Positions 1,238 through 15,639 of a stretch of DNA of 16,745 bases are shown piece by piece. The first letter of the stretch is position 1, and each line of letters starts with the position of its first letter. The notes under the pieces are model-generated. The model was not told the origin of the DNA. It did not search any database and saw only the letters and a program-made list of their open reading frames with translations. The DNA is from Chitinophagia bacterium. GTDB taxonomy: Bacteria > Bacteroidota > Bacteroidia > Chitinophagales > Chitinophagaceae. The stretch covers positions 1 through 16,745 of the forward strand of contig RGVM01000008.1 in NCBI GenBank assembly GCA_010027295.1. Direction: 5' to 3'. The position numbers and the translations under genes were made by a program.

Positions 1238-2015
1238 GTGTCAACAGGTCAAGGATGCGCCGGTAGCGGGTCTTGAAGCGGTTCTTCCGCACGCCGCTGT
1301 GCAGGCCCATCGCACCGATGCAGTATTTGCTGAGCGAGCCGGGCCGGATGGCCAGCCCCCGCATCAGCGTCCGGAAGAATGAAGGTCCGCGCCGCGACTG
1401 CTTCACTTCGGCGACGACGATGCCGTCCAGGTCGAGCCTGCGGCCCGCATGGTCGAACGACAGCCCGAAGTCGAGGGTCACCCGCTCGGCCGTCGCCGGA
1501 TCCACGAGCGTGACGCGGCGATACCGCACCACCAGGCTGGGCCGCAGCCGCCCGGCCGGCAAGGGACCGCAACCGCCGAACAAAGGGTCGGCCAGGAGCA
1601 GCCCGACATCGCCGTCCACACCCGTCACCAACGGCAACCGTGTCTTCACCGTCATCCCACGGTTCTGCCGATGCTTCACCTCGAGGTAGGCCTCCCCCGT
1701 GTCACGGTATCGGCGCACCCTCACTTTGCGGCGCGACAGCCGGCCGGAATGGTGCTCGTGGTAGAACGACATCTCCGGCGTGTCGTAATACACGGTCTCG
1801 TAGGCCGAGATACGCGACCCGCCGACCTCCATCACCCGATACCGACCGACACAGGCCCGGAGGGCGGCCTCCGACTGCTCCCGCGTCATCGCATACTTGA
1901 TATCGACCCGTCGCAGCAGCGAGGCGCTGCTGACGGTCTCGGCCAAACCGATCGGCTCGAAGAGGGGCAATATGTCGTGCTCGATATCCATGCCGGTATC
2001 CTCGTTCCCTCCCAT
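1212..2015 (-). CDS. VTC-domain polyphosphate polymerase
   Basis: This 267-residue protein is a stand-alone VTC (tunnel) domain, the catalytic fold that makes inorganic polyphosphate from ATP in yeast Vtc4. The expected basic and acidic tunnel residues are visible: DIKY at 38-41, YYDTP at 76-80, the Arg/Lys strand KVRVRRY at 97-103, LEVKHR at 111-116, RYRR at 164-167, the acidic metal-site strand VAEVKQ at 201-206 (Glu203) and SKYCIG at 229-234. There is no signal peptide or membrane segment, so it should be cytosolic or held at the membrane by DUF4956. The gene starts 9 nt after CotH ends and overlaps DUF4956 by 26 nt, which supports one transcript. An alternative start is the ATG at 1991 (Met9). 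Triphosphatase (CYTH-like) activity is an alternative reading, but the neighbours favour polymerase. Confidence 0.9.
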   Translation of the reverse strand: MGGNEDTGMDIEHDILPLFEPIGLAETVSSASLLRRVDIKYAMTREQSEAALRACVGRYRVMEVGGSRISAYETVYYDTPEMSFYHEHHSGRLSRRKVRVRRYRDTGEAYLEVKHRQNRGMTVKTRLPLVTGVDGDVGLLLADPLFGGCGPLPAGRLRPSLVVRYRRVTLVDPATAERVTLDFGLSFDHAGRRLDLDGIVVAEVKQSRRGPSFFRTLMRGLAIRPGSLSKYCIGAMGLHSGVRKNRFKTRYRRILDLLTHETDPDTQ

Positions 2016-2024
2016 GGGGGCAAG

Positions 2025-3449
2025 TCAGGGCACATAGGTGGCGAGGAGCGCTCGCCGTGCGGTCACATGGCTCTTCAGGTTCTGCAGCTCGGCCGTGAAG
2101 GCGGCGGCGCTGGTCAGATACGTATAGCCCGGCTGCTCGCCGTTGGCACCGATGGCGTACGGGGAGATCAGCGCATGGTACCTGTCGAACATCGCCTGCA
2201 GGGCCGCCTCCGAGAAGGCGCCGGCGCGGAAGGCCTTCAGGTGGTCCTTGTAGCGCTGCAGCCAGGCGGGGTCGTCCACGATGTAACGGATCAAGGGCCA
2301 GCTCGCCGTCACCTCGTTCATGCTCAGCGAGAGGGCGTTGCGGCCCGGCGGCAACCCGCCCCCGCCGCCCGTCGTGCCCGTGATGCCGGGACTCCCGGCC
2401 ATCGCCTCGTTATGGTCCCAGGGGATCCATACGAACTTGCGCGTCGAGTGGTTGTACAGATAGAAGTTGTGCGCCATCACCCCGTAGCTGTCCCAGTTGA
2501 CGATGGCGTTGTTCACGGCCAGGTACTTCAGGAAATGGTCCACGTCGAGGATCGACTCCAGCTGCGCCTTCCACTGCGCGGCGTTGGTCGTGCGCAGGGG
2601 ACTGTTCAGCGTGCTCACCAGCTGCTGCGCATCGCTGAAGTTGGCGGCCGTCTCGTTGTTCTTCTTGTCGAATAGCGTGGCGTTGAACGCCGTCAGGTTC
2701 AGCTCGGGCTTGTAGATGTTGCCGCTCTCCTCGCCGAACTGCGACTTGATCATGTTGTCATCCGGGAGCTCGATGCCCGTATACACGCCACAGTACTTGA
2801 GCCCCGCACCGAAGTCGATCGACACCCGGTAAAAGGCCGTGCGGGCGCAGGGGATGCCGGCCATCCGGAAGATGTCGGAGGTGGCCTTCTCTCGGATCAG
2901 CGAGGGGTCCTTGGCACCCGGCGAGAAGCTCATCTCCTCGAAGCCGTGGAAATGCTGGTTGGTGGTGCCGGGGTACTTGTCCTCGAACTCGTCGAAGTTA
3001 AGGCGGAAGGGCAGCTTGTAGTTGCCCTGCTGCCAGGCCATGCGGAGCGTCGAGTTGCCCTTGAGGCGGAAGCCCACGTTCTTCCAGGTACGGCCCCGGA
3101 AGCGCAGCGTGACATCGATGTAGTCGGGATCCGTCGAGCCGGCGGCCGGCGGCGGACCGCCCGTGTTCATGCCGAAGTCGATCCCCGTGATGGCCTTCAT
3201 GTTGGCCTTCACCGATGTCCACTGGGCGCCCGTCATCACGATCTCGATGGCGTTCACCGCGTCCTGCGGCAAGACAGTGGTGTAGTCGGGCGCGCTGTTG
3301 CCGTGGCTGGCGTAGGTCCAGTCGGGGTTGTACCGCAGCGTGTCGGCGTTGGAGCCGGCGGCGTCTACGACCGTCTTCCGACAGCCCGGCAGGGCGGCGG
3401 CGAGGAGGGCGGCCATCCACACCCAACGATGGGAGAGACGGATCATCAT
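2025..3449 (-). CDS. CotH kinase family lipoprotein
   Basis: This 474-residue protein is a predicted lipoprotein: a charged N-terminus, a hydrophobic run, then the lipobox LPGC (Cys23). CotH proteins have an atypical protein-kinase fold; Bacillus CotH phosphorylates spore-coat proteins. Family signatures here are FRLKGNSTLR (about 127-136, ATP-side basic strand), REKATSDIFRMAGIPCAR (about 186-203), and the catalytic block NWDSYG-MAHNFYLY followed by WIPWDHNEA, with likely catalytic Asp320 and metal ligands Asn328 and Asp345. A Gly-rich loop (TGTTGGGGG) follows. A longer frame opens at 3494, but the signal peptide begins at the MM at 3449/3446 and a promoter-like element lies between, so the inner start is chosen. 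It is the first gene of a four-gene operon. The host shows no sign of sporulation, so the substrate is unknown and probably in the envelope. Confidence 0.9.
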   Translation of the reverse strand: MMIRLSHRWVWMAALLAAALPGCRKTVVDAAGSNADTLRYNPDWTYASHGNSAPDYTTVLPQDAVNAIEIVMTGAQWTSVKANMKAITGIDFGMNTGGPPPAAGSTDPDYIDVTLRFRGRTWKNVGFRLKGNSTLRMAWQQGNYKLPFRLNFDEFEDKYPGTTNQHFHGFEEMSFSPGAKDPSLIREKATSDIFRMAGIPCARTAFYRVSIDFGAGLKYCGVYTGIELPDDNMIKSQFGEESGNIYKPELNLTAFNATLFDKKNNETAANFSDAQQLVSTLNSPLRTTNAAQWKAQLESILDVDHFLKYLAVNNAIVNWDSYGVMAHNFYLYNHSTRKFVWIPWDHNEAMAGSPGITGTTGGGGGLPPGRNALSLSMNEVTASWPLIRYIVDDPAWLQRYKDHLKAFRAGAFSEAALQAMFDRYHALISPYAIGANGEQPGYTYLTSAAAFTAELQNLKSHVTARRALLATYVP

Positions 3450-3638
3450 GACAGCTTGGATGGGTGAATCTACAAAATCCTTCGGGGTAGTCAATGGTGA
3501 GTGGATTCGGATTGTTTCATATTTTCAAGAGTGCATGGCTTCGTCCTTCAAGCTGGAGGCATGTTGGAATGCCTATTCCATCGCACAAATACATGAAATC
3601 TGGCAACTACCCTCGGGATGCCGTGTCAATATCACCTC
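3450..3638. other. Divergent intergenic region between the CotH operon and the amidohydrolase
   Basis: This 189-nt spacer separates two divergent transcription units and is visibly more AT-rich than the flanking genes. It contains the minus-strand promoter candidate at 3465-3495 and a plus-strand TATTTTCA box at 3520-3527, which could serve the amidohydrolase with a leader of about 100 nt. No convincing gene is seen in it. Confidence 0.5.
3465..3495 (-). promoter_or_regulatory. Candidate promoter of the CotH-VTC-DUF4956-DUF2490 operon
   Basis: On the minus strand, ATTG (3492-3495) is separated by 19 nt from TAGATTCA (3465-3472). This resembles the Bacteroidota promoter TTTG-N19-21-TAnnTTTG, with mismatches in both boxes. 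It would give a very short leader before the ATG at 3449 and would exclude the upstream ATG at 3494. Prediction by eye only. Confidence 0.3.
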
Positions 3639-5180
3639 ATGAACGTCCATGTCATAGCCACTCTGATACGCCTTCCCCTGTTTGCGTACTGCACCATGCT
3701 CATGGCATCCGCCTGCCGAACACCGAGCTCCGACCTGTTGATCACCCACATCCGCCTCATCGACGGGACGGGCAGCGAAGCCCGCAACGGCTCCGTCCGC
3801 ATCCGCGACGGCCGCATCCTCGAGGTGGGCGACCTCTCGCCCTCGAGCCGCGACACGGTCGTCGACGGACAGGGCATGGTCCTCGCCCCGGGCTTCATCG
3901 ACGCCCATTCCCACCACCTCGGATACCTCGGCCGCGACCCTGACGCGCTGGCCACCGCCTCACAGGGCATCACCACCATCGTCATCGGCCAGGACGGCTC
4001 CTCCGAACCGATGGACAGCCTGCAGGCGCTTTTCGATCGGGGCGGCTTCGCCGTCAATATCGCCAGTTACACCGGACAGACATCCCTCCGCGAACAGGCC
4101 ATGGGGCCCGACAGCCTCCTGCGACCGGCACGGCCCGAAGAAGTCTCCGCCATGCAGAAGCTGCTGCGCAGGGAACTGGGCAAGGGCTCGCTGGGCCTAT
4201 CGACGGGACTGGAGTACGAAGGCGCCTTCTACAGCACCCGGAAGGAGGTGCTCGACCTCGCCAGGACCACTGCTCAGGCGGGCGGACGTTACATCAGCCA
4301 TATCCGCAGCGAAGACCTTAGTCTCGACGACGCCCTCGACGAGATCATCGACATCGGCCGCGCCACGGGCATGCCGGTGCAGGTCTCCCATATCAAGATC
4401 GCCGACCGCGAACGCTGGGGGAAAGCCGGTGAAGTCATCGCCCGGCTCGAGAAGGCCCGCCGCGAAGGCGTCGATATCACCGCCGACATCTACCCGTACA
4501 CGTTCTGGAATTCCACCCTCAAGGTACTATTCCCTGACAAGCGTTATGACGACCTGCGCAGCGCGCAGCTGGCTGTCGACAGACTCTTCGACCCCGACTC
4601 GTCCATGCTGGCGCGCTTCCGTCCCGACACCGCCTACGAGGGCCGCATGCTGGGCGATATCGCCCGCAGTCGCGGCGAGACACCCGCAAAGACGCTGCTG
4701 GCCCTCCTCGCCGCGGCGAAGGACTACCGCGCGCGGCACCCCGATGCCGATGGCGTCGAGGCCATCGCCGGCAAGTCGATGCACGAGGCCGATGTGCGCA
4801 CCTTCACCCGCTGGCCGCACACCGTGATATGCTCCGATGGGAACGGGGGCCGCCACCCGCGCGGCTTCGGCACCTTCCCCCGCGTGCTGGGCCGGTATGT
4901 GCGCGAGGCCGGCATCCTCACCCTGCCCGAGGCCATCCACAGGACGACCGGCCTCACCGCCCGACAGCTGGGCATCCCCGACCGCGGACTGGTCAGACCC
5001 GGCTATCCGGCCGACCTCGTCCTCCTCGACCCCGACACGGTCATCGACAACGCCACGCTCGCGGATGGCAACGCCCCTTCCACCGGCATCCTGCGCGTAT
5101 GGGTGAACGGCCGGATGGTCTTCGACAAAGGCAAGACCACCGGAAATCGATCGGGCACGTTGGTGAAAAGGAAAAGCTGA
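3639..5180 (+). CDS. Lipoprotein amidohydrolase, N-acyl-D-amino-acid deacylase (D-aminoacylase) type
   Basis: The 513-residue product belongs to the metal-dependent amidohydrolase superfamily, D-aminoacylase branch, which removes N-acyl groups from D-amino acids. A lipobox-like MASAC (Cys26) suggests periplasmic or outer-membrane anchoring. Visible are the composite beta-sandwich start (LLITHIRLIDGTG, 34-46), the HxH metal motif in FIDAHSHH (His90, His92), GLSTGLEY (186-193), YISHIRSE (His221), VQVSHIK (His251), YPYTFWN (285-291), CSDGNGGRHPRGFGTFPRVL (398-417, catalytic Asp400) and the closing GYPADLVLLDPD. Canonical D-aminoacylases carry a metal-bridging Cys in a GNCG motif after HxH; here the corresponding stretch reads IVIGQDGSS, so that Cys is absent. 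An in-frame ATG at 3618 exists, but the start at 3639 gives the better signal peptide. A dihydroorotase-like or dipeptidase activity cannot be excluded. Confidence 0.88.
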   Translation: MNVHVIATLIRLPLFAYCTMLMASACRTPSSDLLITHIRLIDGTGSEARNGSVRIRDGRILEVGDLSPSSRDTVVDGQGMVLAPGFIDAHSHHLGYLGRDPDALATASQGITTIVIGQDGSSEPMDSLQALFDRGGFAVNIASYTGQTSLREQAMGPDSLLRPARPEEVSAMQKLLRRELGKGSLGLSTGLEYEGAFYSTRKEVLDLARTTAQAGGRYISHIRSEDLSLDDALDEIIDIGRATGMPVQVSHIKIADRERWGKAGEVIARLEKARREGVDITADIYPYTFWNSTLKVLFPDKRYDDLRSAQLAVDRLFDPDSSMLARFRPDTAYEGRMLGDIARSRGETPAKTLLALLAAAKDYRARHPDADGVEAIAGKSMHEADVRTFTRWPHTVICSDGNGGRHPRGFGTFPRVLGRYVREAGILTLPEAIHRTTGLTARQLGIPDRGLVRPGYPADLVLLDPDTVIDNATLADGNAPSTGILRVWVNGRMVFDKGKTTGNRSGTLVKRKS

Positions 5181-5333
5181 GCATCCAGACCCCGGGGCAT
5201 CCCTCATCGGTTATGCGTAGCATGCGCCTATGGCGTAGTGCCAAGACTGCGAACTAAAGGCCTGCCTTTTCGTCAACCGCTTCCGTCCTTTCTCCGTCAG
5301 AACCCGCGAGCCGTGGCATCCCTCAACGGTTCC

Positions 5334-5359
5334 GCGTGGCACCGTCTCGGGTGCCACGC
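5334..5359. repeat. Perfect inverted repeat H1
   Basis: GCGTGGCACC (5334-5343) and GGTGCCACGC (5350-5359) are exact reverse complements separated by a 6-nt loop (GTCTCG). No T-tract follows on either strand, so this is not a standard intrinsic terminator. Confidence 0.95.
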
Positions 5360-5453
5360 CTGCGAGCTCAATGGCCGCCATTCCTCTTACCACACCAAGA
5401 ACTTGCTTCCTGTCATCCGCTATCCGGTCCGCGTGGCACCCCAAGAGCGGTCA

Positions 5454-5479
5454 GCGTGGCATCGTCCCGGGTGCCACGC
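5454..5479. repeat. Inverted repeat H2
   Basis: Same hairpin as H1, 120 bp downstream. The left arm is GCGTGGCATC, so one stem pair becomes a T:G wobble; the loop is GTCCCG. Confidence 0.93.
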
Positions 5480-5573
5480 CTGCGAGCTCAGGGGCCGCCA
5501 TTCCTCTTACCACAGCAAGAACTTGCTCCCTGTCATCCGCCATCCGTTCCTCGTGGCACCCCAAGAGCGGTCC

Positions 5574-5599
5574 GCGTGGCACCGTCCCGGGTGCCACGC
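5574..5599. repeat. Perfect inverted repeat H3
   Basis: GCGTGGCACC and GGTGCCACGC around loop GTCCCG, another 120 bp on. Homology to the 120-bp unit ends soon after the hairpin (about 5610). Confidence 0.95.
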
Positions 5600-5689
5600 C
5601 TGCGAGCTCGAAGCCTGCCCTTTCACCACCCCTCCGACCTTTCTCCTTAAAAACCTGTTAGAGAACCCATCCCTGAACCCTAGAACGCC

Positions 5690-6523
5690 TCAATACCTCG
5701 CCATCATCCTCCCCGGCTCATCGCTGATGAGCCCACGCAACCGCGGCGAGGCAAGGATGTCCGTGTAATCCATCCACCGGCCGTTGACACGCACACGACG
5801 CCGCACGAGCCGGATGCCATGGCTGTAGTCGACGTACCAGTCGACATGCCCGGTGTATAGCGGCTGTATGGGCCTTCCGTCGCCGCGGTGCCAACCGTAG
5901 ATGGCGACCCGGTGGGTCCTGCCCTTCCACGCCTCCTCGCTGCAGAGCACGACATCCTTCTTGATGCCGCTAATAAGTCCTCCGCGCCCCTTGCGCTGGC
6001 CTTCGATGATGAGGTCGTGCTGCATCATGGTCACGGTGCTGTCGCGATAGGCGTACATGGGCACGGGCTCGAGCCTCACCCGGCTCTGCGCATGGATCAG
6101 GTCTACGAGCCTGCGCGTGGGCAGGAAGCATCCCAGCGCATCCGCCACCTGCTGCCCGGTCATCGGCGTCAGCGGCACTCTCGCCCTGTCCGCATCGGTG
6201 CCGACCATGACATAGTCCCTCGACACGAAGAAGGTCGCCTTCCAGTCCCTGCCCGTCGAATCCCGCCAGACACTGCGCACCGGCACGAAGCGCGCGAACG
6301 ACCGCGGCACCCATCCGTCCCGGAAAGCCACCAGGGCGAAGGAGTCGCGCGCACGCCAGCCGAAGGCCGCCGCCGTACGGTAGAAGCCACTCCCTGTGAC
6401 AGCCGCACCGGTCCGCTCCGGCAAGGCGACGTGACGGGCCGACCGGCACGAAGGCAGGAACACCCCGACACCGAGCCATAGCCCGGCGGCAGCCGAACGG
6501 ACAAGCGCGGGCGATCTGTACAT
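5690..6523 (-). CDS. Uncharacterised lipoprotein with a conserved GWH..DGRPIQPL / WYVDYSHG region
   Basis: This 277-residue protein has a signal peptide with lipobox FLPSC (Cys26), so it should be lipid-anchored. The N-terminal half (residues 47-120) contains aromatic-rich strand-like segments (FALVAFRDGWVPRSF, WKATFFVSRDYVMVG). The C-terminal half carries conserved-looking polar motifs: IKKDVVLC (188-194), RVAIYGWHRGDGRPIQPL (205-222), HVDWYVDYSHGIRLV (226-240). I recall similar IYGWH / ADYSHG.RLV blocks in hypothetical proteins of Bacteroidota and Planctomycetes. The clustered His, Asp and Lys suggest an enzyme, but no function can be assigned. The ATG at 6532 is three codons upstream; 6523 is chosen because a TACATTCC box (6537-6544, minus strand) lies almost on the earlier codon. 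It is convergent with the amidohydrolase across the repeat region. Confidence 0.75.
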   Translation of the reverse strand: MYRSPALVRSAAAGLWLGVGVFLPSCRSARHVALPERTGAAVTGSGFYRTAAAFGWRARDSFALVAFRDGWVPRSFARFVPVRSVWRDSTGRDWKATFFVSRDYVMVGTDADRARVPLTPMTGQQVADALGCFLPTRRLVDLIHAQSRVRLEPVPMYAYRDSTVTMMQHDLIIEGQRKGRGGLISGIKKDVVLCSEEAWKGRTHRVAIYGWHRGDGRPIQPLYTGHVDWYVDYSHGIRLVRRRVRVNGRWMDYTDILASPRLRGLISDEPGRMMARY

Positions 6524-6667
6524 CCGATCCATATCGGAATGTACGCAATCACTTCAAGTGGTCATGCCAACACCCCACCGACCGCTTGTCCTATACCTTC
6601 TGTGATGATCGGCCTTTCGGCGATATTCACTACTTTGTCTTCCCATCGACCCTTCAAGGACAACTCC

Positions 6668-8320
6668 ATGCGAACGCCCCTCCGCCTCCTGGCAACAGCC
6701 CTCCTCCTCCTGCGCCTGTCGACGCCGATGGCCCAGGACCGCGTCATCCCCCTCTACGATGGCGCGGCGCCCGGCTCCGAATCCTGGACCTGGGATGAGG
6801 TCGAGAACACCAAGAACGGCTGGAACACCCGCATCTTCTACAACGTCACGAAGCCCACGCTGACCCTCTTCCTCCCCGAGGCGGGCAAGGCCAACGGCAC
6901 GTCCGTCGTCATCTGCCCCGGCGGCGCCTTCCGCGCCCTCTCCATCGACAGCGAGGGCTTCGACGTCGCCCGCTGGCTGGCGAAGAAGGGCGTCACCTGC
7001 TTCGTGCTGAAATACCGGCTCGTCCGCATGAAGACGAACGACCCGGTCGCCGAGATGACCGCCGACTGGGGATCGGCCAACTTCGCCGCAGAGAGCCGCA
7101 AGGTCATCCCCCTCAGCATCGCCGACGGCCGCAACGCCCTCGCCTGGGTGCGCCGCCATGCCGACGAATGGCGGCTCGACCCCGACCGCATCGGCATCAT
7201 GGGCTTCTCCGCCGGTGGCACGGTCGCCGGCGCCGCCGCCTTCGGATACAACGAGGCCAACCGGCCCGCCTTCGTCGCACCCATCTACCCCTTCTACCCC
7301 GATGAGCTGATCGGGAAGGTCGCCCCCGACGCGCCGCCCATGTTCCTCACGGCCGCCAGCGACGATGGCCTCGACCTCGCCCCGCACAGCGTGGCCCTCT
7401 ACAACGCATGGCTCAAGGCGAAGAAGAGCGTCGAGATGCATCTCTACGCGAAAGGCGGCCACGGCTTCGGCATGCGCACCCAGAAACTTCCGTCCGACCA
7501 GTGGATCGAACGCTTCGGCGACTGGCTGCAACTCAACGGATGGCTCACCAAAAGCAGCTACGACCCCGCCATGAAACCCTACCTGAAACGGACCCTCGCC
7601 TACGAACCCGACAAGACCCTGCCCTATCGCATCCTCTACCCCGAGAACTACGACAGGACGAAGAAATATCCCCTGATCCTCTTCCTGCACGGGGCCGGGG
7701 AACGCGGATCCGACAACATGCGCCAGCTCATCCACGGCTCAAAAATGTTCCTGCAGCCCGGGGTCCGGAGCCAGTACCCCGCCATCGTCCTCTTCCCGCA
7801 ATGCCCCGAGAACAGCTTCTGGGCGAATACGAAGATGGACCGCACCAGGACGCCCGTCTCCTTCGAATTCGACTACAACGCCCAGCCCAACTGGCCCCTC
7901 GATGCCGTCAACCGCCTCGTCGACAGCGTCATGGCCAGTGAGGCCGTCGACCCCGCGCGCGTCTACGTCACCGGCCTGTCCATGGGCGGGATGGGCACTT
8001 TCGAGATGGTCCACCGCTGGCCCAACCGTTTCGCGGCAGCCATGCCCATCTGCGGGGGCGGCAACACCGCCGCCTACGACAAGCGCGTGAAAGACATCGC
8101 CTTCCACGTCTACCATGGCGACAAGGACGCCGTCGTCGATGTAAACCTGTCCCGGAACATGGTCCAACGCCTGAACGACCTCAAGGTGAAATCCGTCGAA
8201 TACACGGAATACCCCGGCGTCAACCACAACAGCTGGGATAACGCCTTCGCCGACTCCGACTTCCTCGGATGGATGTTCCGCCAGCAGCGCAAACCCGCCA
8301 AGCCCGCCAAAAGGAAATGA
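6668..8320 (+). CDS. Secreted esterase with two tandem alpha/beta-hydrolase domains
   Basis: The 550-residue product has a signal peptide (MRTPLRLLATALLLL, cleavage near the AQ at 22-23). Domain 1 (about 25-295) resembles BD-FAE/acetyl-xylan-esterase-like hydrolases: oxyanion segment CPGGAFRALS (83-92), nucleophile GFSAG (Ser181), acid near SDDG (231-234) and GGHGF (His265). Domain 2 (about 300-538) resembles CE1/PHB-depolymerase-like esterases: FLHGAGERG (339-347), nucleophile GLSMGG (Ser438), acid HGDKDAVV (Asp487) and VNHNSW (His520). Both catalytic triads look complete, implying two active sites. Likely substrates are acetyl or feruloyl esters on plant polysaccharides, by family analogy only. 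The tail is basic (KPAKPAKRK). A frame opens at 6539, but the signal peptide fixes the start at 6668. It converges with the FkbM gene after 16 nt. Confidence 0.87.
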   Translation: MRTPLRLLATALLLLRLSTPMAQDRVIPLYDGAAPGSESWTWDEVENTKNGWNTRIFYNVTKPTLTLFLPEAGKANGTSVVICPGGAFRALSIDSEGFDVARWLAKKGVTCFVLKYRLVRMKTNDPVAEMTADWGSANFAAESRKVIPLSIADGRNALAWVRRHADEWRLDPDRIGIMGFSAGGTVAGAAAFGYNEANRPAFVAPIYPFYPDELIGKVAPDAPPMFLTAASDDGLDLAPHSVALYNAWLKAKKSVEMHLYAKGGHGFGMRTQKLPSDQWIERFGDWLQLNGWLTKSSYDPAMKPYLKRTLAYEPDKTLPYRILYPENYDRTKKYPLILFLHGAGERGSDNMRQLIHGSKMFLQPGVRSQYPAIVLFPQCPENSFWANTKMDRTRTPVSFEFDYNAQPNWPLDAVNRLVDSVMASEAVDPARVYVTGLSMGGMGTFEMVHRWPNRFAAAMPICGGGNTAAYDKRVKDIAFHVYHGDKDAVVDVNLSRNMVQRLNDLKVKSVEYTEYPGVNHNSWDNAFADSDFLGWMFRQQRKPAKPAKRK

Positions 8321-8336
8321 ACCGACGATATAGCCC

Positions 8337-9146
8337 TCAGTCCATCGGTCGCGCCACCCAGTCGTGCGCGGCGATCTGCTCGGGCACATAGCCCTTCCCG
8401 TCGAGATAGGCGAGCGTCTCGAAGACGTTGTTCCCGAACCGACGGCACAGGGCCTCGTCGCATTCGAGCATGAGGAAGGGACGGCCGGCGCCCCAGAGCA
8501 GCCCGGATGCCCCTTTGAGACAGCCGAGCTCGGCACCCTCCACATCCACCTTCATGACGTCCGCGCGCGCGATGCCAATGCCGGCGAGGTGCGCATCCAG
8601 CGTCACGCACTCGATGCCGCCTTCATCACCCTCTGCGAGTGGTGTCATCGAATGGAAGGAGTCGCCATAAGCATACCTGGCCTGCACGACATCCGGAACG
8701 GACAGGCTCACATGGCCAGGACGGTCCGAGAGCGCCAGCGGAAAGGCTCTGACATTCGTACAGCCGTTCGCCTCCAGGTTGCGACGTAGCACAGCGAAGC
8801 TGACGGGGTCGGGCTCATAGGCCAGCACCAGTCCCTGCGGACCCACCAGCCGCGAGGCCGCCATCGAGTACATACCCACGTTGGCGCCGACGTCGATCAC
8901 GGTGGCACCCGGGGACAGGCGGCTGCAGAAGAGGTCGAGCATCCCCGTCTCGAACGACTTCCCGAAACGGACCAGGTGCGACTGCATGTACAGCATCCGG
9001 GCCACGTCCCCGTACCGCTCGAATCGGAAGCGCATGCCCTTGCGGACCGGAATCTCGAAGGACGATCGGAGCCCCATGTCCCAATGCAGACCCTTCACCG
9101 ACGACCAGACGTCTGATGCGAACCTCTTCGCGCCGTGTATGATCAT
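8337..9146 (-). CDS. FkbM-family SAM-dependent methyltransferase
   Basis: The 269-residue soluble protein carries the class I methyltransferase motifs of FkbM enzymes, which O-methylate sugars, polyketides or other metabolites. These are motif I VIDVGANVGMYS (83-94), the acidic ribose-binding strand AYEPDP (109-114), the NGCTNVRAFPLALSD block (127-141), VTLDAHL (181-187) and the FkbM signature MKVDVEGAELGCLKG (198-212). A TM-free N-terminus of about 60 residues with ERYGDVARMLYMQSHLVRFGKSFE precedes motif I. The ATG at 9146 is preferred over an in-frame start at 9224, since the added 26 residues look unstructured. No glycosyltransferase or polysaccharide genes flank it, so the substrate is unknown. 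Confidence 0.92.
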   Translation of the reverse strand: MIIHGAKRFASDVWSSVKGLHWDMGLRSSFEIPVRKGMRFRFERYGDVARMLYMQSHLVRFGKSFETGMLDLFCSRLSPGATVIDVGANVGMYSMAASRLVGPQGLVLAYEPDPVSFAVLRRNLEANGCTNVRAFPLALSDRPGHVSLSVPDVVQARYAYGDSFHSMTPLAEGDEGGIECVTLDAHLAGIGIARADVMKVDVEGAELGCLKGASGLLWGAGRPFLMLECDEALCRRFGNNVFETLAYLDGKGYVPEQIAAHDWVARPMD

Positions 9147-9417
9147 GTGGACTTGAATGGTGTACCTGCAATGTCGCGATTCTCCCGGTAACGCCGGAGG
9201 TGCGAATGTTCGGGCGCATCCCATGCCTGAGTTGACCTCCTCCGGGACAAAGAATCGACCCTCCCTGAAGCCATCTCGTCAATCATACCTTTCTTGAATG
9301 GAGGAGCGTAATGAATACCTCCAGCCACGCCCCGTCTTCATGGATGTCTTCGAACTGGGCGGATGACAGGGCGGCAAACCCCCAAGTATACACGACAGGC
9401 AAAATGTCGCCTTGGAC

Positions 9418-9443
9418 TTCAGGCGGTCAGCCGAACGCCTGAA
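9418..9443. promoter_or_regulatory. Inverted repeat, possible operator or leader hairpin
   Basis: TTCAGGCG (9418-9425) and CGCCTGAA (9436-9443) are perfect reverse complements with a 10-nt loop. The element ends 35 nt before the metallophosphoesterase ATG and just upstream of the TATTTTCA box, where a repressor operator over the -33 region would lie. No T-tract follows. Confidence 0.45.
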
Positions 9444-9449
9444 ATCCCG

Positions 9450-9457
9450 TATTTTCA
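9450..9457 (+). promoter_or_regulatory. TATTTTCA box, candidate -7 element of the metallophosphoesterase operon
   Basis: The octamer fits TAnnTTCA, close to the Bacteroidota -7 consensus TAnnTTTG, and lies 22 nt before the ATG at 9479. No matching TTTG box is seen 19-21 nt upstream; that space is taken by the inverted repeat. Confidence 0.3.
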
Positions 9458-9478
9458 TCACACCAACCCTCCACGCAC

Positions 9479-10300
9479 ATGCAACGCAGACGCTTCCTCC
9501 GCGACATCTCCGCCTCCGCCGTCCTCCTCCTCCATGGGAAAACCCTGCTGGCATCGCAGGAGCCCGGCTGGAAATCCAAAAAACCCATCCTCCGCTTCGC
9601 CGTAGCCTCCGACATACACTTCGGACAACCCAAGACGGAGTTCCGCGACATGCTCGCCACCGGCGTCCGACAGATCAACGCCATCCACGCCGAGAAAAAA
9701 CTCGACTTCTGCGTCATCAACGGCGATATCGTACACGACGACATCTCCTTCCTCGCCGAAGCCCGACGAACCCTCGACGGACTCCCCACCAAGTACTACG
9801 TCACCCAGGGCAACCACGACCTCGCCACCGCGGCGCAATGGCAGGCCGCCTGGGACATGCCCGTCAACTTCGACATCGTCAAGGGAGATACCGCACTCCT
9901 CTTCGCCACCACCTCCAACGAGACCGGGAAATACCTCCCGCCCGACCTCGACTGGCTCGCCGCGAAATTCAAGGAACATGCAAAAGCCAGGCATATCCTG
10001 CTCTTCATACACATCCCGCCCATCAAGTGGACACGACACGCCATCGAATCCACCCCCTTCCAGGAACTCGTCAAACAGCAGAAGAACCTGCGCGCCGTCT
10101 TCCACGGCCATGAACACGACCAGGACGGCATCAAATGGCAGGACAAGATCCCCTACCTCTTCGACAGCCATATCGGCGGCAGCTGGGGCACCGACTACCG
10201 CGGTTACCGCATGGTCGAACTCTTCCGCGACGGCTCCATGAAGACATGGATCATGAACCCCACCGAGTCGCTCTACCTGACCGATATCCCGACGGCCTGA
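9479..10300 (+). CDS. Tat-exported calcineurin-like metallophosphoesterase
   Basis: This 273-residue phosphoesterase has a twin-arginine-type leader (MQRRRFLRDISASAVLLL), suggesting export after folding with its metals. The dinuclear metal motifs are all present: ASDIHFG (Asp45, His47), NGDIVHD (Asp83), GNHD (111-114, Asn112, His113), FIHIPP (His178) and FHGHEHD (His211, His213). Length and motif spacing match small single-domain phosphoesterases acting on phosphodiesters or phosphomonoesters; the substrate cannot be read from sequence. It appears to lead a run of four plus-strand genes with gaps of 37-42 nt. The gene right after it is also a metallophosphoesterase, but of a different, cytosolic subfamily. 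Confidence 0.9.
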   Translation: MQRRRFLRDISASAVLLLHGKTLLASQEPGWKSKKPILRFAVASDIHFGQPKTEFRDMLATGVRQINAIHAEKKLDFCVINGDIVHDDISFLAEARRTLDGLPTKYYVTQGNHDLATAAQWQAAWDMPVNFDIVKGDTALLFATTSNETGKYLPPDLDWLAAKFKEHAKARHILLFIHIPPIKWTRHAIESTPFQELVKQQKNLRAVFHGHEHDQDGIKWQDKIPYLFDSHIGGSWGTDYRGYRMVELFRDGSMKTWIMNPTESLYLTDIPTA

Positions 10301-10337
10301 ACCGGACAGGCCTTCCCTTTCCAAAAACACCGCACCC

Positions 10338-11261
10338 TTGACCCTCTCCGGCTACGACATCATCGGCGACATACACGGGCACGCCTCCGCCCTGGAAGCC
10401 CTCCTCCAACGACTGGGCTACACGCATGCGAACGATACCTGGACGCATAGCGAACGCAAGGCCGTCTTCGTAGGCGACTACATCGACCGCGGTCCCCGCA
10501 TCCGCGACACCCTCCGCATCGTACGATCCATGGTCGACAACAGCTCCGCCCTGGCCATCATGGGCAACCACGAATACAACGCCATCGCCTTCCAATACCA
10601 CCACCCCGACGGCGGCCATATCCGCCCACACAACCTGGTCAACCTCAACCAACACCTCCAGACACTCCATCAGTTCGCCAAACGCGAATCCGAATGGGGC
10701 GACTGGCTCGCCTGGTTCGCCAACCTCCCCCTCTTCCTCGAAACTGAAGGCATCCGCGTCGTCCACGCCTGCTGGGATGACACCTATATCGACTTCATGC
10801 GCAGCATGGAAGGACCTATCACCCGGGAAATCCTGCTCAAGGCGCACGTACCCGACAGCGATGAGGAACATGCCTTCCAGGTCGTCCTCAAGGGCAAGGA
10901 GCTGATCCTGCCCGACGGTCACTACTTCCTCGACAAGGAGGGCCACCCCCGCACCGAATGCCGCACCAAATGGTGGCTCGACGCCGCCGGCTGCACGCTG
11001 GGCCAATACCTCATGCACGCCCCCGCGACGGTCACCGACCTGCGGGTACAGCCCGGAGCCGATGACATCCCCTATCCGGCCGACGCGCCCCCCGTCTTCT
11101 TCGGGCACTACTGGCTGGACCCCGTCACGCCCGTCCGGCAGGCGCCCAACGCCTGCTGCGTCGACTACAGCGTGGCCAAGGACGGCATGCTCGTCGCCTA
11201 CCGTCACCATTTTGACCGATCCGCGTCGGACCCGGATCCCTTCGTGACGGTCAGACCGTGA
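10338..11261 (+). CDS. Cytosolic PPP-type metallophosphoesterase (Ser/Thr phosphatase/ApaH-like), TTG start
   Basis: The 307-residue protein carries the PPP-family signature set: GDIHGH (10-15), GDYIDRGP (46-53), GNHEYNA (76-82), HACW (His143) and FFGHYWL (His257). This matches protein phosphatases and diadenosine-polyphosphate or bis-nucleotide hydrolases of the PrpE/ApaH type. No signal peptide is present. The first motif begins only nine residues in, and no ATG or GTG lies in frame between the preceding gene and it, so the TTG at 10338 is the best start. An insertion between GNHE and HACW (residues 85-135) has His-rich and Trp-rich segments (YHHPDGGHIRPH, WGDWLAWF). It sits 37 nt after the exported phosphoesterase and 42 nt before the next gene. 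Confidence 0.87.
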   Translation: MTLSGYDIIGDIHGHASALEALLQRLGYTHANDTWTHSERKAVFVGDYIDRGPRIRDTLRIVRSMVDNSSALAIMGNHEYNAIAFQYHHPDGGHIRPHNLVNLNQHLQTLHQFAKRESEWGDWLAWFANLPLFLETEGIRVVHACWDDTYIDFMRSMEGPITREILLKAHVPDSDEEHAFQVVLKGKELILPDGHYFLDKEGHPRTECRTKWWLDAAGCTLGQYLMHAPATVTDLRVQPGADDIPYPADAPPVFFGHYWLDPVTPVRQAPNACCVDYSVAKDGMLVAYRHHFDRSASDPDPFVTVRP

Positions 11262-11303
11262 ACCCGGAGCACCTCCCGTTCGTTAGCCTTCGAAAACCGC
11301 AAC

Positions 11304-12194
11304 ATGAAGGAAAGATTCAAACAACTGCCCCGACTCCTACCCCTGATCGCCCTGCTCTCCATGGGATGGATGGGATGGAAGGCGGCACACCCCGTCAGGC
11401 CGATGATCGACCGGAGCACCGCCATCGCATGCCTCTCCATGGAGACCCTCGACGCCTACCAGGCCGAAGCCTCCACGACAGGCTTCGCCGCCATGCACCC
11501 CGCCCCGCGAAAGGCCGACACCGACCCGCTGCTCGGAAAGATGATACGCTTCCCCGTGGCCGGCGGACACGACGCCAACGCCTACTTCGTCCCATCGAAG
11601 AAGAAGTCGAAGAAATGGCTGATCGTCATCCAGGAATGGTGGGGACTGAACGAGAACATCAAACAGGAGGCCGACAAGTACTTCAACGCCCTGGGCGACA
11701 TGAACATCCTCGCCGTCGACATGTACGACGGACGCGTGGCCGCCACGCCCGACAGCGCCATGAAGATCATGCGCTCGGCCGACATGAACCGCATGACCGC
11801 CATCGTTCGCTCGGCGATGGACCACGCCGGCGAGAAAGCGTCCATCTACAGCGTGGGCTGGTGCTTCGGCGGCATGTGGAGCCTGCAGACGGCCATCCTC
11901 GCCGGCGAGAAGGGAAAGGGCTCCGTCATGTTCTACGGACGGCCCGAGACCGATACGGAGAAACTCAAGTCGGTCCGCTGCGATGTCATCGGCTTCTTCG
12001 GCAACCGCGACAGGTCGCCCTCCCCCGCCATGGTCGACGAGTTCGAACGCAGCATGGCCGCCCTCGGCAAGAACCTCACCGTCCACCGCTATGACGCCGG
12101 ACACGGCTTCGCCAACCCCAGCAACCCGATCTTCAACCGGGAAGCCACGGATGACTCCTTCGCCAAGGCCGTCGCCTTCCTCAAGGCGCACTGA
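11304..12194 (+). CDS. Exported dienelactone-hydrolase-family protein
   Basis: This 296-residue alpha/beta hydrolase has an N-terminal signal or anchor segment (residues 8-27, LPRLLPLIALLSMGWMGW) and a roughly 45-residue linker before the catalytic domain. Dienelactone-hydrolase hallmarks are the QEWWGLN segment (Glu111, which pairs with the nucleophile in this family), DMYDGR (Arg144), the cysteine nucleophile in GWCFGG (Cys187), an acid in GNRD (Asp236) and GHGFAN (His267). The family hydrolyses cyclic enol-lactones and related esters. Canonical members are cytosolic and about 230 residues, so the export signal is unusual for catabolic chlorocatechol enzymes and points to another substrate. 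It is probably co-transcribed with the FAD oxidoreductase 41 nt downstream. Confidence 0.9.
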   Translation: MKERFKQLPRLLPLIALLSMGWMGWKAAHPVRPMIDRSTAIACLSMETLDAYQAEASTTGFAAMHPAPRKADTDPLLGKMIRFPVAGGHDANAYFVPSKKKSKKWLIVIQEWWGLNENIKQEADKYFNALGDMNILAVDMYDGRVAATPDSAMKIMRSADMNRMTAIVRSAMDHAGEKASIYSVGWCFGGMWSLQTAILAGEKGKGSVMFYGRPETDTEKLKSVRCDVIGFFGNRDRSPSPAMVDEFERSMAALGKNLTVHRYDAGHGFANPSNPIFNREATDDSFAKAVAFLKAH

Positions 12195-12235
12195 CGGAGC
12201 GTTCGGAATAACCGCAAGGGTCAAACGAAAATTAG

Positions 12236-13912
12236 ATGAGGAGACGCGATTTTATAGGAATGGGTACGCTGGCCGCAGGATCGCTCGCAGCGGGACAGAC
12301 GGTTGAATTGGCGCAAGAAACCATGCCCAGCCCTCCGACGCCGAACCGGATGCAGGCCGACCTGGTCGTTGCCGGAGGTGGACTCGGGGGCGTGGCGACC
12401 GCCCTGGCCGCCCTCCGCAACGGGCTCAGCGTCATACTCACCGAGGAGACCGACTGGCTGGGCGGACAACTCACATCCCAGGGCGTCCCGCCCGACGAGC
12501 ACCCATGGATCGAGACCCACGGTGCTCCAAGATCCTATCGCGCCCTGCGCCAGGGCATACGCGATTATTACCGTCACCACTATCCGCTCACGGACAGCGC
12601 CCGCCAGGACCCGCTACTCAACCCCGGTCGTGGAAGCGTCTCCCGCCTCTGCCACGAACCCGCCATCGCCCACGCCGTGATCCGGGAGATGCTCGCCCCC
12701 TGGACTAGCAGCCTCCGGCTGCGCATCCTGACCGAACACCTGCCCGTATCTGCCGGGATGTCGGGAGACAGGGTGCTTTCCCTAACGGTCAGGCATACAC
12801 GAACCCATGTGGAATCCATCCTCACCGCCCCCTGGTTCGTGGACGCCACCGAGTTGGGCGACCTCCTGCCCCTCACCGGCTGCGAATACGTCACCGGCAC
12901 CGAGTCGAAGGCCAAGACGGGTGAACGGCATGCCGCCGAGGCGGCCGACCCGAAGAACCACCAGGCCTTCACCGTCTGCTTCGCGATGGACTACTGTCCC
13001 GGCGAAGACCATGTCATCGAAAAGCCGGCCGACTACGGCTACTGGCGCGACTACGTCCCCGACCTGACACCCGCCTGGCCGGGACGGCTCCTCCACCTCC
13101 ACTATAGCCAGCCCTCGACACTCAAACCCAAGGCCCTCGGCTTCCACCCCGAAGGCGTGGCCACGGGCGACAACCTCAACCTCTGGCTCTACCGTCGTAT
13201 CCTCGACAAGTCGCTCTTCACACCCGGCACCTACAAGGGTGACATCTCGCTCGTCAACTGGCCGCAGAACGACTACATGAATGGCAACCTCATCGATGTC
13301 ACCCGGAAGGAATTCCAAAAGCATGTCGATGGGGCCAAACAGCTCAGCCTGTCGCTGCTATATTGGCTGCAGACGGAAGCGCCCCGTCCCGACGGAGGCA
13401 AAGGCTGGCGCGGTCTCCGCCTGCGACCCGACGTCATGGGCACGGCAGACGGCCTCGCGAAATACCCGTACGTACGCGAATCCCGCCGCATCAAGGCGGA
13501 ATTCACCGTCGACGAGCGCCACTGCGGCAAGGAACAGTCGGGCGGCAAGGGCGCCGCCTTCCAAGACAGCGTCGGAATCGGCTACTACCATATCGACCTG
13601 CACCCCAGCAACCGCGGCGTCAACTATATCGACTTCCCGTCGGTACCCTTCCAGATACCCCTTGGCGCACTCATCCCCGTGCGGTTGCAAAACCTCCTGC
13701 CGGCCTGCAAGAACATCGGGACGACGCATATCACCAACGGCTGTTATCGGCTGCACCCTGTCGAATGGAGCATCGGAGAGGCCGTGGGATGCCTGGTGGC
13801 ATTTGCACAGGGCAAGGGGCTGAGCCCTCGCGACATCCGGTCGGATGCTGTCCGGTTGGCCGACTTCCAGGGCTTCATCCGAAGCCAGGGGCTGGAGACG
13901 GATTGGCCGTAG
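12236..13912 (+). CDS. Tat-exported FAD-dependent oxidoreductase
   Basis: The 558-residue product starts with a Tat-like leader (MRRRDFIGMGTLAAGSLAAG). A dinucleotide-binding motif follows at 43-57 (LVVAGGGLGGVATAL) with an acidic ribose-binding strand end (ILTEETDWLGGQLTSQG, 67-83). This TDWLGGQLTSQG pattern is typical of the FAD-dependent oxidoreductase group (FAD_oxidored) found in Bacteroidota and Planctomycetes. Other features are a mid-protein FVDATELGDLLPLTG (201-215), which closes the FAD site, and a C-terminal block LLPACKNIGTTHITNGCYRLHPVEWSIGEAVG (487-518). The substrate is unknown. It is the last of four plus-strand genes and ends in the second hairpin-repeat region. Confidence 0.88.
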   Translation: MRRRDFIGMGTLAAGSLAAGQTVELAQETMPSPPTPNRMQADLVVAGGGLGGVATALAALRNGLSVILTEETDWLGGQLTSQGVPPDEHPWIETHGAPRSYRALRQGIRDYYRHHYPLTDSARQDPLLNPGRGSVSRLCHEPAIAHAVIREMLAPWTSSLRLRILTEHLPVSAGMSGDRVLSLTVRHTRTHVESILTAPWFVDATELGDLLPLTGCEYVTGTESKAKTGERHAAEAADPKNHQAFTVCFAMDYCPGEDHVIEKPADYGYWRDYVPDLTPAWPGRLLHLHYSQPSTLKPKALGFHPEGVATGDNLNLWLYRRILDKSLFTPGTYKGDISLVNWPQNDYMNGNLIDVTRKEFQKHVDGAKQLSLSLLYWLQTEAPRPDGGKGWRGLRLRPDVMGTADGLAKYPYVRESRRIKAEFTVDERHCGKEQSGGKGAAFQDSVGIGYYHIDLHPSNRGVNYIDFPSVPFQIPLGALIPVRLQNLLPACKNIGTTHITNGCYRLHPVEWSIGEAVGCLVAFAQGKGLSPRDIRSDAVRLADFQGFIRSQGLETDWP

Positions 13913-13939
13913 GTCAGGCGACGGAGCTAATAGGCATCT

Positions 13940-13971
13940 CCGTGCCATCCGCCACAGGCGGAGAGCCACGG
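13940..13971. repeat. Diverged hairpin H4 (A type, CCGCC/GGCGG tip)
   Basis: An imperfect stem CCGTG...CACGG encloses an inner stem CCGCC-ACA-GGCGG. Flanks (GGAGCTAATAGGCATCT before, CTCGCGAACTCACATGAAG after) align with those of H5 and H7, showing it is the same element with a different tip. Confidence 0.75.
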
Positions 13972-14041
13972 CTCGCGAACTCACATGAAGAAAGGGCTGA
14001 GATGGCCCCGAAAGGGCAGCTGGCGGGGCCAATAGGTATCT

Positions 14042-14073
14042 CCGTGGCATGCGCCTATGGCGTAGTGCCACGG
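14042..14073. repeat. Hairpin H5 (A type, GCGCC/GGCGT tip)
   Basis: CCGTGGCA (14042-14049) pairs with TGCCACGG (14066-14073); the tip GCGCC-TAT-GGCGT pairs with one G:T wobble. An alternative pairing exists between TCTCCGTG just before the hairpin and CACGGAGA at 14087-14094, so two mutually exclusive folds are possible. Confidence 0.9.
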
Positions 14074-14137
14074 CTGGCGGGTTCTCACGGAGAAAGGTAG
14101 GAGGTTATTGCCCAAAACGCAGGCATCCAGCTCGCAG

Positions 14138-14163
14138 GCGTGGCACCCGGGACGGTGCCACGC
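14138..14163. repeat. Perfect inverted repeat H6 (B type, ACC/GGT tip)
   Basis: GCGTGGCACC (14138-14147) and GGTGCCACGC (14154-14163) flank CGGGAC, the exact reverse complement of H3 in cluster 1. Confidence 0.95.
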
Positions 14164-14274
14164 GGAACCGATGGGGCACGTGGACCGCTCTTGCGGTGGC
14201 ATGAGGAACGGATGGCACCGGTTCGTGAAGGCCATGAGGTTATGAGGCGAAACTGGCGGAGCTAAAAGGTATCT

Positions 14275-14306
14275 CCGTGGCATGCGCCTATGGCGTAGTG
14301 CCACGG
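14275..14306. repeat. Hairpin H7 (A type), identical to H5
   Basis: The sequence is identical to H5 within a 58-nt conserved block, 233 bp downstream. Confidence 0.93.
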
Positions 14307-14370
14307 CTGGCGGGTTCTCACGGAGGAAGGGCTGAGCAGGTTGGTGAAAAGGCAGGCATCGAGCTCGCAG

Positions 14371-14402
14371 GCGTGGCTCTCCGCCTGCGGCGGATGCCAC
14401 GC
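14371..14402. repeat. Hairpin H8 (B type with TCCGCC/GGCGGA tip)
   Basis: The basal stem GCGTGGC/GCCACGC is the same as in H6, but the tip is TCCGCC-TGC-GGCGGA rather than ACC-N6-GGT. A tip of the CCGCC/GGCGG class is also found on A-type hairpin H4. Confidence 0.9.
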
Positions 14403-14550
14403 GGAACCGATGGGGCACGCGGACCGTTCTTGCGATGCCAAGAGGGACGGATGGCGGATGACGGGAAGTGCGTTATTGCGATGCCGTGAGGAAAGGATTG
14501 CGTGACACGCGGAAAGACCCGGGCGAATGCAACCTCTATCTCCTGGCCCC

Positions 14551-15639
14551 TCATCGCAGCGAAACACTCCGCCCCGTCCGGGCCGACTCCCTGGCCGCCT
14601 CCAATATCCGCACCACCAGCAGGTTGTTCTCCAGCGAATACAATCCGTACCGCGGCACTGGCAACCTTCCACGGATCACGTCCGCGAAATACAGGAAGGG
14701 GCTGGTATAGGTCCCCGTCTCCTCCGGCTGTAGCATCAAAGTCTGCTCCGCACCTGCCCTGCCCTTCACCCGCATCTCGCGCGCATCCTTTGTGATCGCG
14801 TAGCCGGCCGCTCCGTACACGGCCATGTCCTTGCGGTTGTAGGGCCAGTTCCAGCTGGCCTGTATGATGCACTGTGCCGACGGATAGGTCAGGATGATGG
14901 TGGCCTCGTCGTCCACCTTGGGGTAGATATGGGGCTTGATTTGCTGTGTCACGGCCGTGACGGTCAGCGGGACCTGGCCATCCATCAGGTGTGTCATGAG
15001 GTTGGCACCGTAACAGCCGAAGTCGGTCAGCGCGCCGCCGCCGTTCAGCACCGGGTCCGTCAGCCAGTCGAAGAACTCCTGAGAGACGCCGATCTCACGA
15101 GGGCCCTGGTGGCCGTCGTGCACCACGACCTTGCGAATGGGACCCATGAACGAAGTGTCGCGCGTCAGCTGATGCGTCCGGTCCGTCACCGGATACCAGG
15201 AGGTCTCGTAATTCGTCAGGACCGGCACGCCATGCTTGCGTGAGAGCGCCGCGATGCGCTCGGCATGCGCCACCGTCGTCGCCAAGGGCTTCTCCACCAT
15301 CACGGGGATGCCCCTCGGTACGGCCGCCTCCACGACCTTCATATGGTCGTAGGTGCTCCCGAAGGCCATCACGCCCTGCGGCTTCACGGCGTCAAGCATG
15401 CGCGCAAGGTCGTCGTGGAAGAGCGATGGGTCGAGCCCGTACCGCCGCGCCATCTTCTCCGCGAGCGGACGGCTGGGCTCGTAGATGCCCACCAGCTGCA
15501 CCGCCGTGTCGTTGCGCCGTCCCAGGACCCAGGAACTGTGGCCGTGCGAGATGCCGGCCACCGCCAGCCGCACCGGCTGCGCCTGACCGAGCAGGCAGGC
15601 GATCAGATAGGACAGGATGAGAAAAGGCCGCCTCGACAT
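14551..15639 (-). CDS. Tat-exported Gfo/Idh/MocA-family oxidoreductase
   Basis: The 362-residue protein begins with a near-consensus Tat motif (SRRPFLI, residues 2-8) and a hydrophobic segment ending AQA, so it should be exported with its nicotinamide cofactor bound. The Rossmann start is VRLAVAGISHGHSSW (23-37), a variant of the usual GxGxxG with His-rich turn. Family marks are FGSTYDHMKVVEAA (93-106), VEKPLATT (115-122, catalytic-site EKP), GGALTDFGCYGANLMTHLM (201-219) and a C-terminal beta-sheet domain (SWNWPYNRKDMAVYG). Exported Gfo/Idh/MocA enzymes in Bacteroidota often act on sugars or glycosides. The Rieske lipoprotein lies 67 nt upstream on the same strand. A TATTTTCA box precedes the start. 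Confidence 0.92.
   Translation of the reverse strand: MSRRPFLILSYLIACLLGQAQPVRLAVAGISHGHSSWVLGRRNDTAVQLVGIYEPSRPLAEKMARRYGLDPSLFHDDLARMLDAVKPQGVMAFGSTYDHMKVVEAAVPRGIPVMVEKPLATTVAHAERIAALSRKHGVPVLTNYETSWYPVTDRTHQLTRDTSFMGPIRKVVVHDGHQGPREIGVSQEFFDWLTDPVLNGGGALTDFGCYGANLMTHLMDGQVPLTVTAVTQQIKPHIYPKVDDEATIILTYPSAQCIIQASWNWPYNRKDMAVYGAAGYAITKDAREMRVKGRAGAEQTLMLQPEETGTYTSPFLYFADVIRGRLPVPRYGLYSLENNLLVVRILEAARESARTGRSVSLR

Follow-up and report, generated by a model that had tools for sequence, protein, structure and literature searches.

The window analyzed here is a 16,745-nucleotide stretch of DNA from an uncultured Bacteroidetes-related bacterium, whose genome assembly (G000) comprises 3.57 Mb in 923 contigs and is 92.8% complete with 4.48% contamination. 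Two junctions between converging genes in the window are filled with hairpin repeats, which span 5217-5597 and 13942-14400 and are inverted relative to each other. The first junction (5181-5689) lies between an amidohydrolase gene (3618-5180, + strand; Pfam Amidohydro_3) and a convergent gene that matched no Pfam or NCBIfam model (5690-6532, - strand). The second (13913-14550) is bordered by a FAD-dependent oxidoreductase gene (12236-13912, + strand; Pfam FAD_oxidored) and a convergent GFO/IDH/MocA oxidoreductase gene (14551-15639, - strand; Pfam GFO_IDH_MocA). The first-pass annotation had placed one composite repeat at both convergent junctions in opposite orientation, and this description is borne out: the reverse complement of 5203-5330 presents the same parts in the same order, namely CCACGGCTCGCGGGTTCT, GACGGAGAAAGG, GAAAAGGCAGGC, a degenerate AGTTCGCAGTCTTGGC, the hairpin and CCGATGAGGGATGCC. 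The inverted pair formed by 5197-5318 and 14299-14420 (122 nt) is 77% complementary. No Rfam RNA family was matched within the window, in agreement with the earlier remark that the sequence was not recognized as a known family.

The hairpins share the arms GTGGCA/TGCCAC and occur in two sequence contexts. In the Y context the hairpin is preceded by GGTTCCGC and succeeded by GCCTGCGAGC, and in the Z context it is preceded by GGTATCTCC and succeeded by GGCTCGCGGG; at the foot, Y has a G-C pair and Z a C-G pair. Three loop types were distinguished: A (ACCGTCYCGGGT), B (ATCCGCCnnnGGCGGAGT) and C (ATGCGCCnnnGGCGTAGT). Cluster 1 consists mainly of four + strand Y hairpins, together with half of a Z unit. 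Its first hairpin (5217-5244, +) has the Y context, a type C loop and degenerate arms, and was found by the pattern scan with 2 mismatches and by covariance model R1 (match 5209-5252). The Z unit at 5282-5318 (- strand), recognized from its sequence and from inverted matches I1 and I2, retains only the right half (GCCACGGCTCGCGGGTTCTGACGGAGAAAGG), the left half being absent. Three type A Y hairpins (5336-5357, 5456-5477 and 5576-5597, all +), each detected by both the pattern scan and the covariance model, lie within a tandem array at 5334-5609 (+; period 120, 2.3 copies; Tandem Repeats Finder and direct match D4), which is a local amplification of the Y unit.

Cluster 2 contains three Z and two Y hairpins with a 233-nt period, all five again detected by both methods. 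The first is a degenerate type B Z hairpin (13942-13969, +), whose flanks were classed by fuzzy match as one Z and one Y. A type C Z hairpin (14044-14071, +) forms a Z(68 nt)Y dimer with a type A Y hairpin (14140-14161, -), and a second type C Z hairpin (14277-14304, +) is joined at the same distance to a type B Y hairpin (14373-14400, -). The 233-nt Z-spacer-Y unit is thus present twice within 14020-14485 (+; direct match D3), 14020-14144 being 87% identical to 14253-14377.

Dispersal of the element beyond the window, which the first-pass annotation had proposed, was found by three routes across G000. The sequence 14020-14485 used as a query returned 82 matching segments, a count that includes the query itself and some palindromic stretches on both strands, and 5312-5610 returned 73, self and both palindrome strands again counted. 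Hairpin patterns allowing up to three mismatches matched 49 places for loop A and 27 for loops B/C; the backwards-read control matched none in G000 and only once, in G023, over the search of 41 genomes. We fetched 34 contigs (266,682 bases), of which 33 held matches and one, C50, carries a Y1 transposase gene. Pattern matches on them numbered 84, and the 79 with recognizable Y or Z flanks fall into 34 clusters. A covariance model was built from 49 hairpins and used to score up to 150 candidates in each genome. It gave 80 matches in G000, representing 79 sites since a hairpin on C45 was matched on both strands, three in the relative G007, and none among the best 150 candidates or fewer scored in each of 39 other genomes of the genus. 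An exact scan for the type A hairpin over 84,980 species genomes, from which the window's own records were possibly excluded, returned a single record, VGFQ01000007.1 (a Bacteroidetes MAG), which is apparently G007. In a family sample of 195 genomes, to which G007 did not belong, G000 alone was returned. The family, with 34 clusters and a minimum of 79 hairpins in G000, is lineage-specific and nearly absent from relatives. Restriction to the two window loci, with no copies in relatives, had been named as the outcome that would favor a local duplication; with 34 clusters in G000 and hairpins also in G007, the repeat is not so restricted. Contigs C312 (end of L173) and C303 (start of L172) stop inside or near repeats, and G007:C5 28711-28817 indicates that both flank one junction. 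Because contigs end in this way, copy number in G000 is probably underestimated.

Flank classes were assigned to the 79 hairpins: both flanks were Y in 50 and both Z in 18, one flank was recognized in 10, and one hairpin (13942-13969) has one of each. All three loops were found in both contexts (n = 75; loop A in 37 Y and 11 Z, B in 10 Y and 5 Z, C in 4 Y and 7 Z, one unclassified); the loop thus acts as a module that can be exchanged. Loop orientation relative to context is constant among classed rows except in two chimeric hairpins, C45 6278-6305 (L156) and C83 3348-3369 (L158), which combine the left arm of Z with the left arm of Y in reverse; a deletion between dimer partners would produce this structure. 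The 45 neighbor pairs were Z(+)Y(-) in 20 cases, Y(-)Z(+) in 12, Y(+)Y(+) in 10, Z(+)Z(+) in two and Y(+)Z(+) in one. The Z(+)...Y(-) spacer measures 66-70 nt in 18/20 pairs, in contrast to 98-213 nt in the 12 Y(-)Z(+) pairs. Dimer partners had matched loop types in 5/18 cases (6.7 expected; P(>=5) = 0.90), which does not favor a single long dimer hairpin, although the arms themselves could still pair.

Pairing of the helix is conserved, with 94.9% of cells paired, and the individual hairpins have predicted energies of about -12 to -17 kcal/mol (DNA parameters). Across 42 distinct rows the foot pair was G-C in 20 and C-G in 19. Cells changed on both sides numbered 30, compared with 14.8 after shuffling (0/500 shuffles as high); 19 of them represent the single Y/Z foot difference and 10 a change from C-G to G-T between loops B and C. 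Covariation is thin, two of five measures not rising above shuffles: pairs changed on both sides numbered three (136/500 shuffles as high) and further pair types eight (361/500).

The left-half motif (CGGTTCCGCGTGGCA) is repeated upstream of Y with a 23-nt period, mainly at -9, -32, -55, -78, -101 and -124, with a variable middle; the register is broken at several sites, for example by an 18-nt step at C9. Within 160 nt of 52 Y hairpins (the mixed row at 13942 counted), two to six units were present in 34, one in 15, of which at least three are cut by a contig end, and none in three. A two-unit pattern matched 34 places in G000, all on contigs already matched by the 14020-14485 or 5312-5610 queries; it matched none in the backwards-read control and none in six relatives.

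Positions relative to genes were obtained with our own gene calls, to which 77 hairpins were mapped. Genes lie on both sides of 25 of the 34 clusters (11 convergent, 12 co-directional and 2 divergent), and a contig edge adjoins the other nine. Junctions on the same contigs are 30 convergent, 123 co-directional and 27 divergent, so that repeats occupy 11/30 convergent and 14/150 other junctions (Fisher p = 4e-4). Three clusters (C291, C779 and C802) overlap with a called ORF, whose start may be over-extended. Convergent junctions that bear repeats measure 299-910 nt, the 19 without repeats 0-708 nt, and the 117 in the examined stretches of G007 have a median of 50 nt. Scans for intrinsic terminators gave no site in 5100-5750 and one in 13850-14600, where 0.5 would be expected; that site is not a REP hairpin, and the hairpins of the two window clusters do not have the form of a GC hairpin followed by a T run. 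In our own scan, terminator-like sites were found in 5/11 repeat-bearing convergent junctions, 0/19 others and 13/117 in G007. A terminator-like hairpin with a T run, identified by eye, stands beside the repeats at C15 and C266 in G000; the G007 counterparts of these junctions have it too but lack the repeats. Since repeats and terminators coexist and the window hairpins are not called as intrinsic terminators, we take the placement to reflect tolerance at gene ends rather than a terminator role.

The window aligns collinearly with G007:C5 (nucleotide identity about 69-83%), which indicates that its flanks are genuine. Measured from stop to stop, the first window junction is 42 nt in G007 and the second 7 nt, both free of hairpins, versus 509 and 638 nt in the window. 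G007 is the sole other genome in which the hairpin was found, placing the family in 2/41 genomes tested, and its copies, six by pattern search and three by covariance model, are all solitary. Junctions were compared over 957,482 bases, about a third of G007. At eight of them (clusters 0, 4, 9, 17, 23, 24 and 27, plus contig ends 14/15 taken as one) both neighbors are side by side in G007, and seven of these eight, the two window junctions among them, have no hairpin match there, cluster 27 being the exception. Cluster 10 was left out of this count, its neighbors being about 1.2 kb apart in G007, also with no hairpin match. Another two G007 hairpins directly follow the orthologue of a gene whose 3' end adjoins a cluster in G000 (clusters 21 and 28). 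Three of the six G007 hairpins (L189 5150-5172, L185 8143-8165 and L188 11040-11062) thus share a junction with G000, which suggests an older presence followed by expansion in the G000 lineage; each was called in the opposite orientation, a call made less sure by three mismatches to the pattern. The empty G007 junctions may represent the ancestral state or losses. On contig C83 (L158), 680-3348 holds a HAD_SAK_2 gene and an AAA_14/DUF4143 gene between two repeat clusters; the outer genes converge as direct neighbors in G007:C22, and the stretch is a possible repeat-bounded insertion.

A search with the Pfam Y1_Tnp model (PF01797) found one gene in G000 and one in G007. The absence of a REP-associated transposase noted for the window thus extends to the G000 assembly, where the only match is an IS200-like Y1 transposase gene on contig C50 (L041 1426-1857, - strand), flanked by a DAHP synthase/chorismate mutase gene and aroB. 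The first-pass annotation had further predicted a Y1 or RAYT gene carrying the hairpin at its flank, which did not materialize: neither the 3.3-kb locus nor the 6.8-kb contig holds a repeat. The translated protein has 143 aa with motifs DHLH and YIDRQ, and scores 57.3 against the IS200-type model (cut-off 55) and 24.9 bits against REP_Tyr_transpos (NCBIfam cut-off 80). By motif and length, compared by eye, it resembles subclass 1.2 of TnpA(Y1), which is listed without REPs in the available portion of PMC6006769. The Y1_Tnp search listed 38 places, of which eight were left out of the neighborhood survey; one or both aro neighbors adjoin the gene at 19 of the 29 further loci examined, in 19 genomes. 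With G000 counted, at least 20/41 genomes have the gene at the aro position, and in 17/20 it is the genome's only Y1_Tnp match. The gene looks domesticated. As G000 is 92.8% complete, a transposase gene belonging to the family is possibly missing from the assembly.

Likeness to REP/BIME elements, also proposed at first reading, is upheld by the Z(+)...Y(-) pairs and by the gene-end placement with its convergent excess. REPs and BIMEs, as the available portions of PMC3733652 and PMC8266576 describe them, are imperfect palindromes of 20-40 nt that lie between genes, near gene ends or between convergent genes, in opposite-orientation pairs, with several loop or stem classes, clustered and mosaic. 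The G000 family is likewise a short imperfect palindrome with tens to hundreds of dispersed copies (79 sites), is extragenic and favors gene 3' ends (11/25 two-gene clusters convergent), and alternates in orientation in mosaic pairs (45 neighbor pairs). Unlike the REPs and BIMEs described there, it lacks a GTAG or CGTC foot tetranucleotide, has a nearly fixed 68-nt spacer and carries the 23-nt direct-repeat array next to Y. In 75 hairpins, both strands were free of GT[AG]G and CGTC/TGTC/CCTC tags up to 6 nt from the foot; the complement-strand foot is instead mostly GCAG (Y) or CGAG/CCAG (Z). REPINs, a concept presented in PMC6006769 (see also PMC3116915), are inverted pairs at fixed spacing and likely units of dispersal. 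The G000 dimers share that arrangement (66-70 nt in 18/20), but their loop types are unmatched (5/18), unlike partners that form one long hairpin, and no RAYT/TnpA(REP) gene flanked by repeats, as in a REPtron, was found in the assembly.

REPs are reported mainly from Proteobacteria, and those with a CGTC tag also from Bacteroidetes, in the consulted part of PMC3733652. Judged by description, the G000 repeats resemble the CGTC-tagged REPs reported there in being dispersed palindromes with no associated transposase gene, but CGTC, TGTC and CCTC are absent near their foot. Atypical REP-like structures flank subclass 2.6 TnpA(Y1) genes of Bacteroidetes in the available text of PMC6006769 and are similar in host, in having hairpins with no GT[AG]G and in their dispersed copies, whereas the Y1 gene of G000 is unflanked and of another motif type, as judged by description. 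Untagged REP-like families, compared in the same manner with the corresponding portion of PMC3733652, are also palindromic with no conserved terminal tag; tag-less and transposase-less families are left there as open questions. The G000 repeats form a genuine family of REP/BIME-like type, specific to their lineage; its foot, fixed-spacer heterodimer and 23-nt array set it apart from tagged families.

Several explanations were weighed. A purely local duplication, or an artefact of assembly or contamination, could be suspected from the 923 contigs, the 4.48% contamination and the nine of 34 clusters beside a contig edge. It is contradicted by genome-wide matches spread over 33 contigs, by collinearity with G007 and by the covariance-model counts, and we consider it extremely improbable. 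If the hairpins were selected as transcription terminators or mRNA 3' stabilizers of converging genes, the convergent enrichment and the predicted energies would fit, yet the window hairpins received no terminator call, 5/11 repeat-bearing convergent junctions hold a terminator-like site anyway (0/19 without repeats), C15 and C266 have theirs in both species with repeats in G000 only, and the second window junction is 7 nt in G007 and has no repeat; such selection is very unlikely. We likewise strongly doubt that the clusters are target arrays for a DNA-binding protein, kept for chromosome organization, in which the 23-nt repeats would be iteron-like sites. The register upstream of Y (-9 to -124) and the two-unit pattern, present in G000 and in none of six relatives, would suit such sites, but unit number varies among Y hairpins, spacing departs from 23 nt at several sites, and replication slippage alone can produce arrays of variable unit number; a protein-binding role for the array is a guess.

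That the domesticated-looking aro-cluster transposase moves the repeats in trans, acting on the hairpins, is rather unlikely. Both hairpin-bearing genomes have this gene as their sole Y1_Tnp match, and its product has both motifs; against this, it sits at the aro position in at least 20/41 genomes while the family is in 2/41 only, its flanks in G000 are free of repeats, its scores favor the IS200 type over the REP type, and the subclass it resembles by motif and length has no REPs listed in the available part of PMC6006769. Recombination alone may also have spread the repeats. We judge it quite unlikely that the repeats represent a new class of mobile hairpin in Bacteroidetes, an asymmetric element made up of a Z hairpin, a 68-nt spacer, a Y hairpin and a 23-nt array, with interchangeable loops. 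In that scenario the Y1 transposase, domesticated within the aro cluster of the genus, would act in trans and recognize the complement-strand foot GCAG/CGAG/CCAG (SSAG type).

The repeats probably make up a family of REP/BIME-like type, consisting of small non-autonomous hairpin elements whose numbers rose in the G000 lineage. Copy number, fixed Z-Y spacing, conserved pairing, convergent excess and the seven of eight empty G007 junctions argue for this reading, as do the 120-nt and 233-nt tandem copies, which reflect local amplification, and the chimeras at C45 and C83, which reflect recombination. Counted against it are the lack of a transposase tied to the family, the untagged foot of 75 hairpins, the unmatched loops of dimers, the thin covariation and the three of six G007 hairpins at shared junctions. 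In such a family the Z-68-Y pair would be the unit copied, possibly by strand transfer on single-stranded hairpins through an HUH/Y1-type enzyme; local tandem duplication and inter-hairpin recombination would then build the clusters and chimeras, and placement beyond gene ends would mainly reflect tolerance there, with no terminator role. The G000 family is lineage-specific, its elements have a clear anatomy, and a relative has no repeat at several of the same junctions, so that the unit of movement and the enzyme become directly testable.
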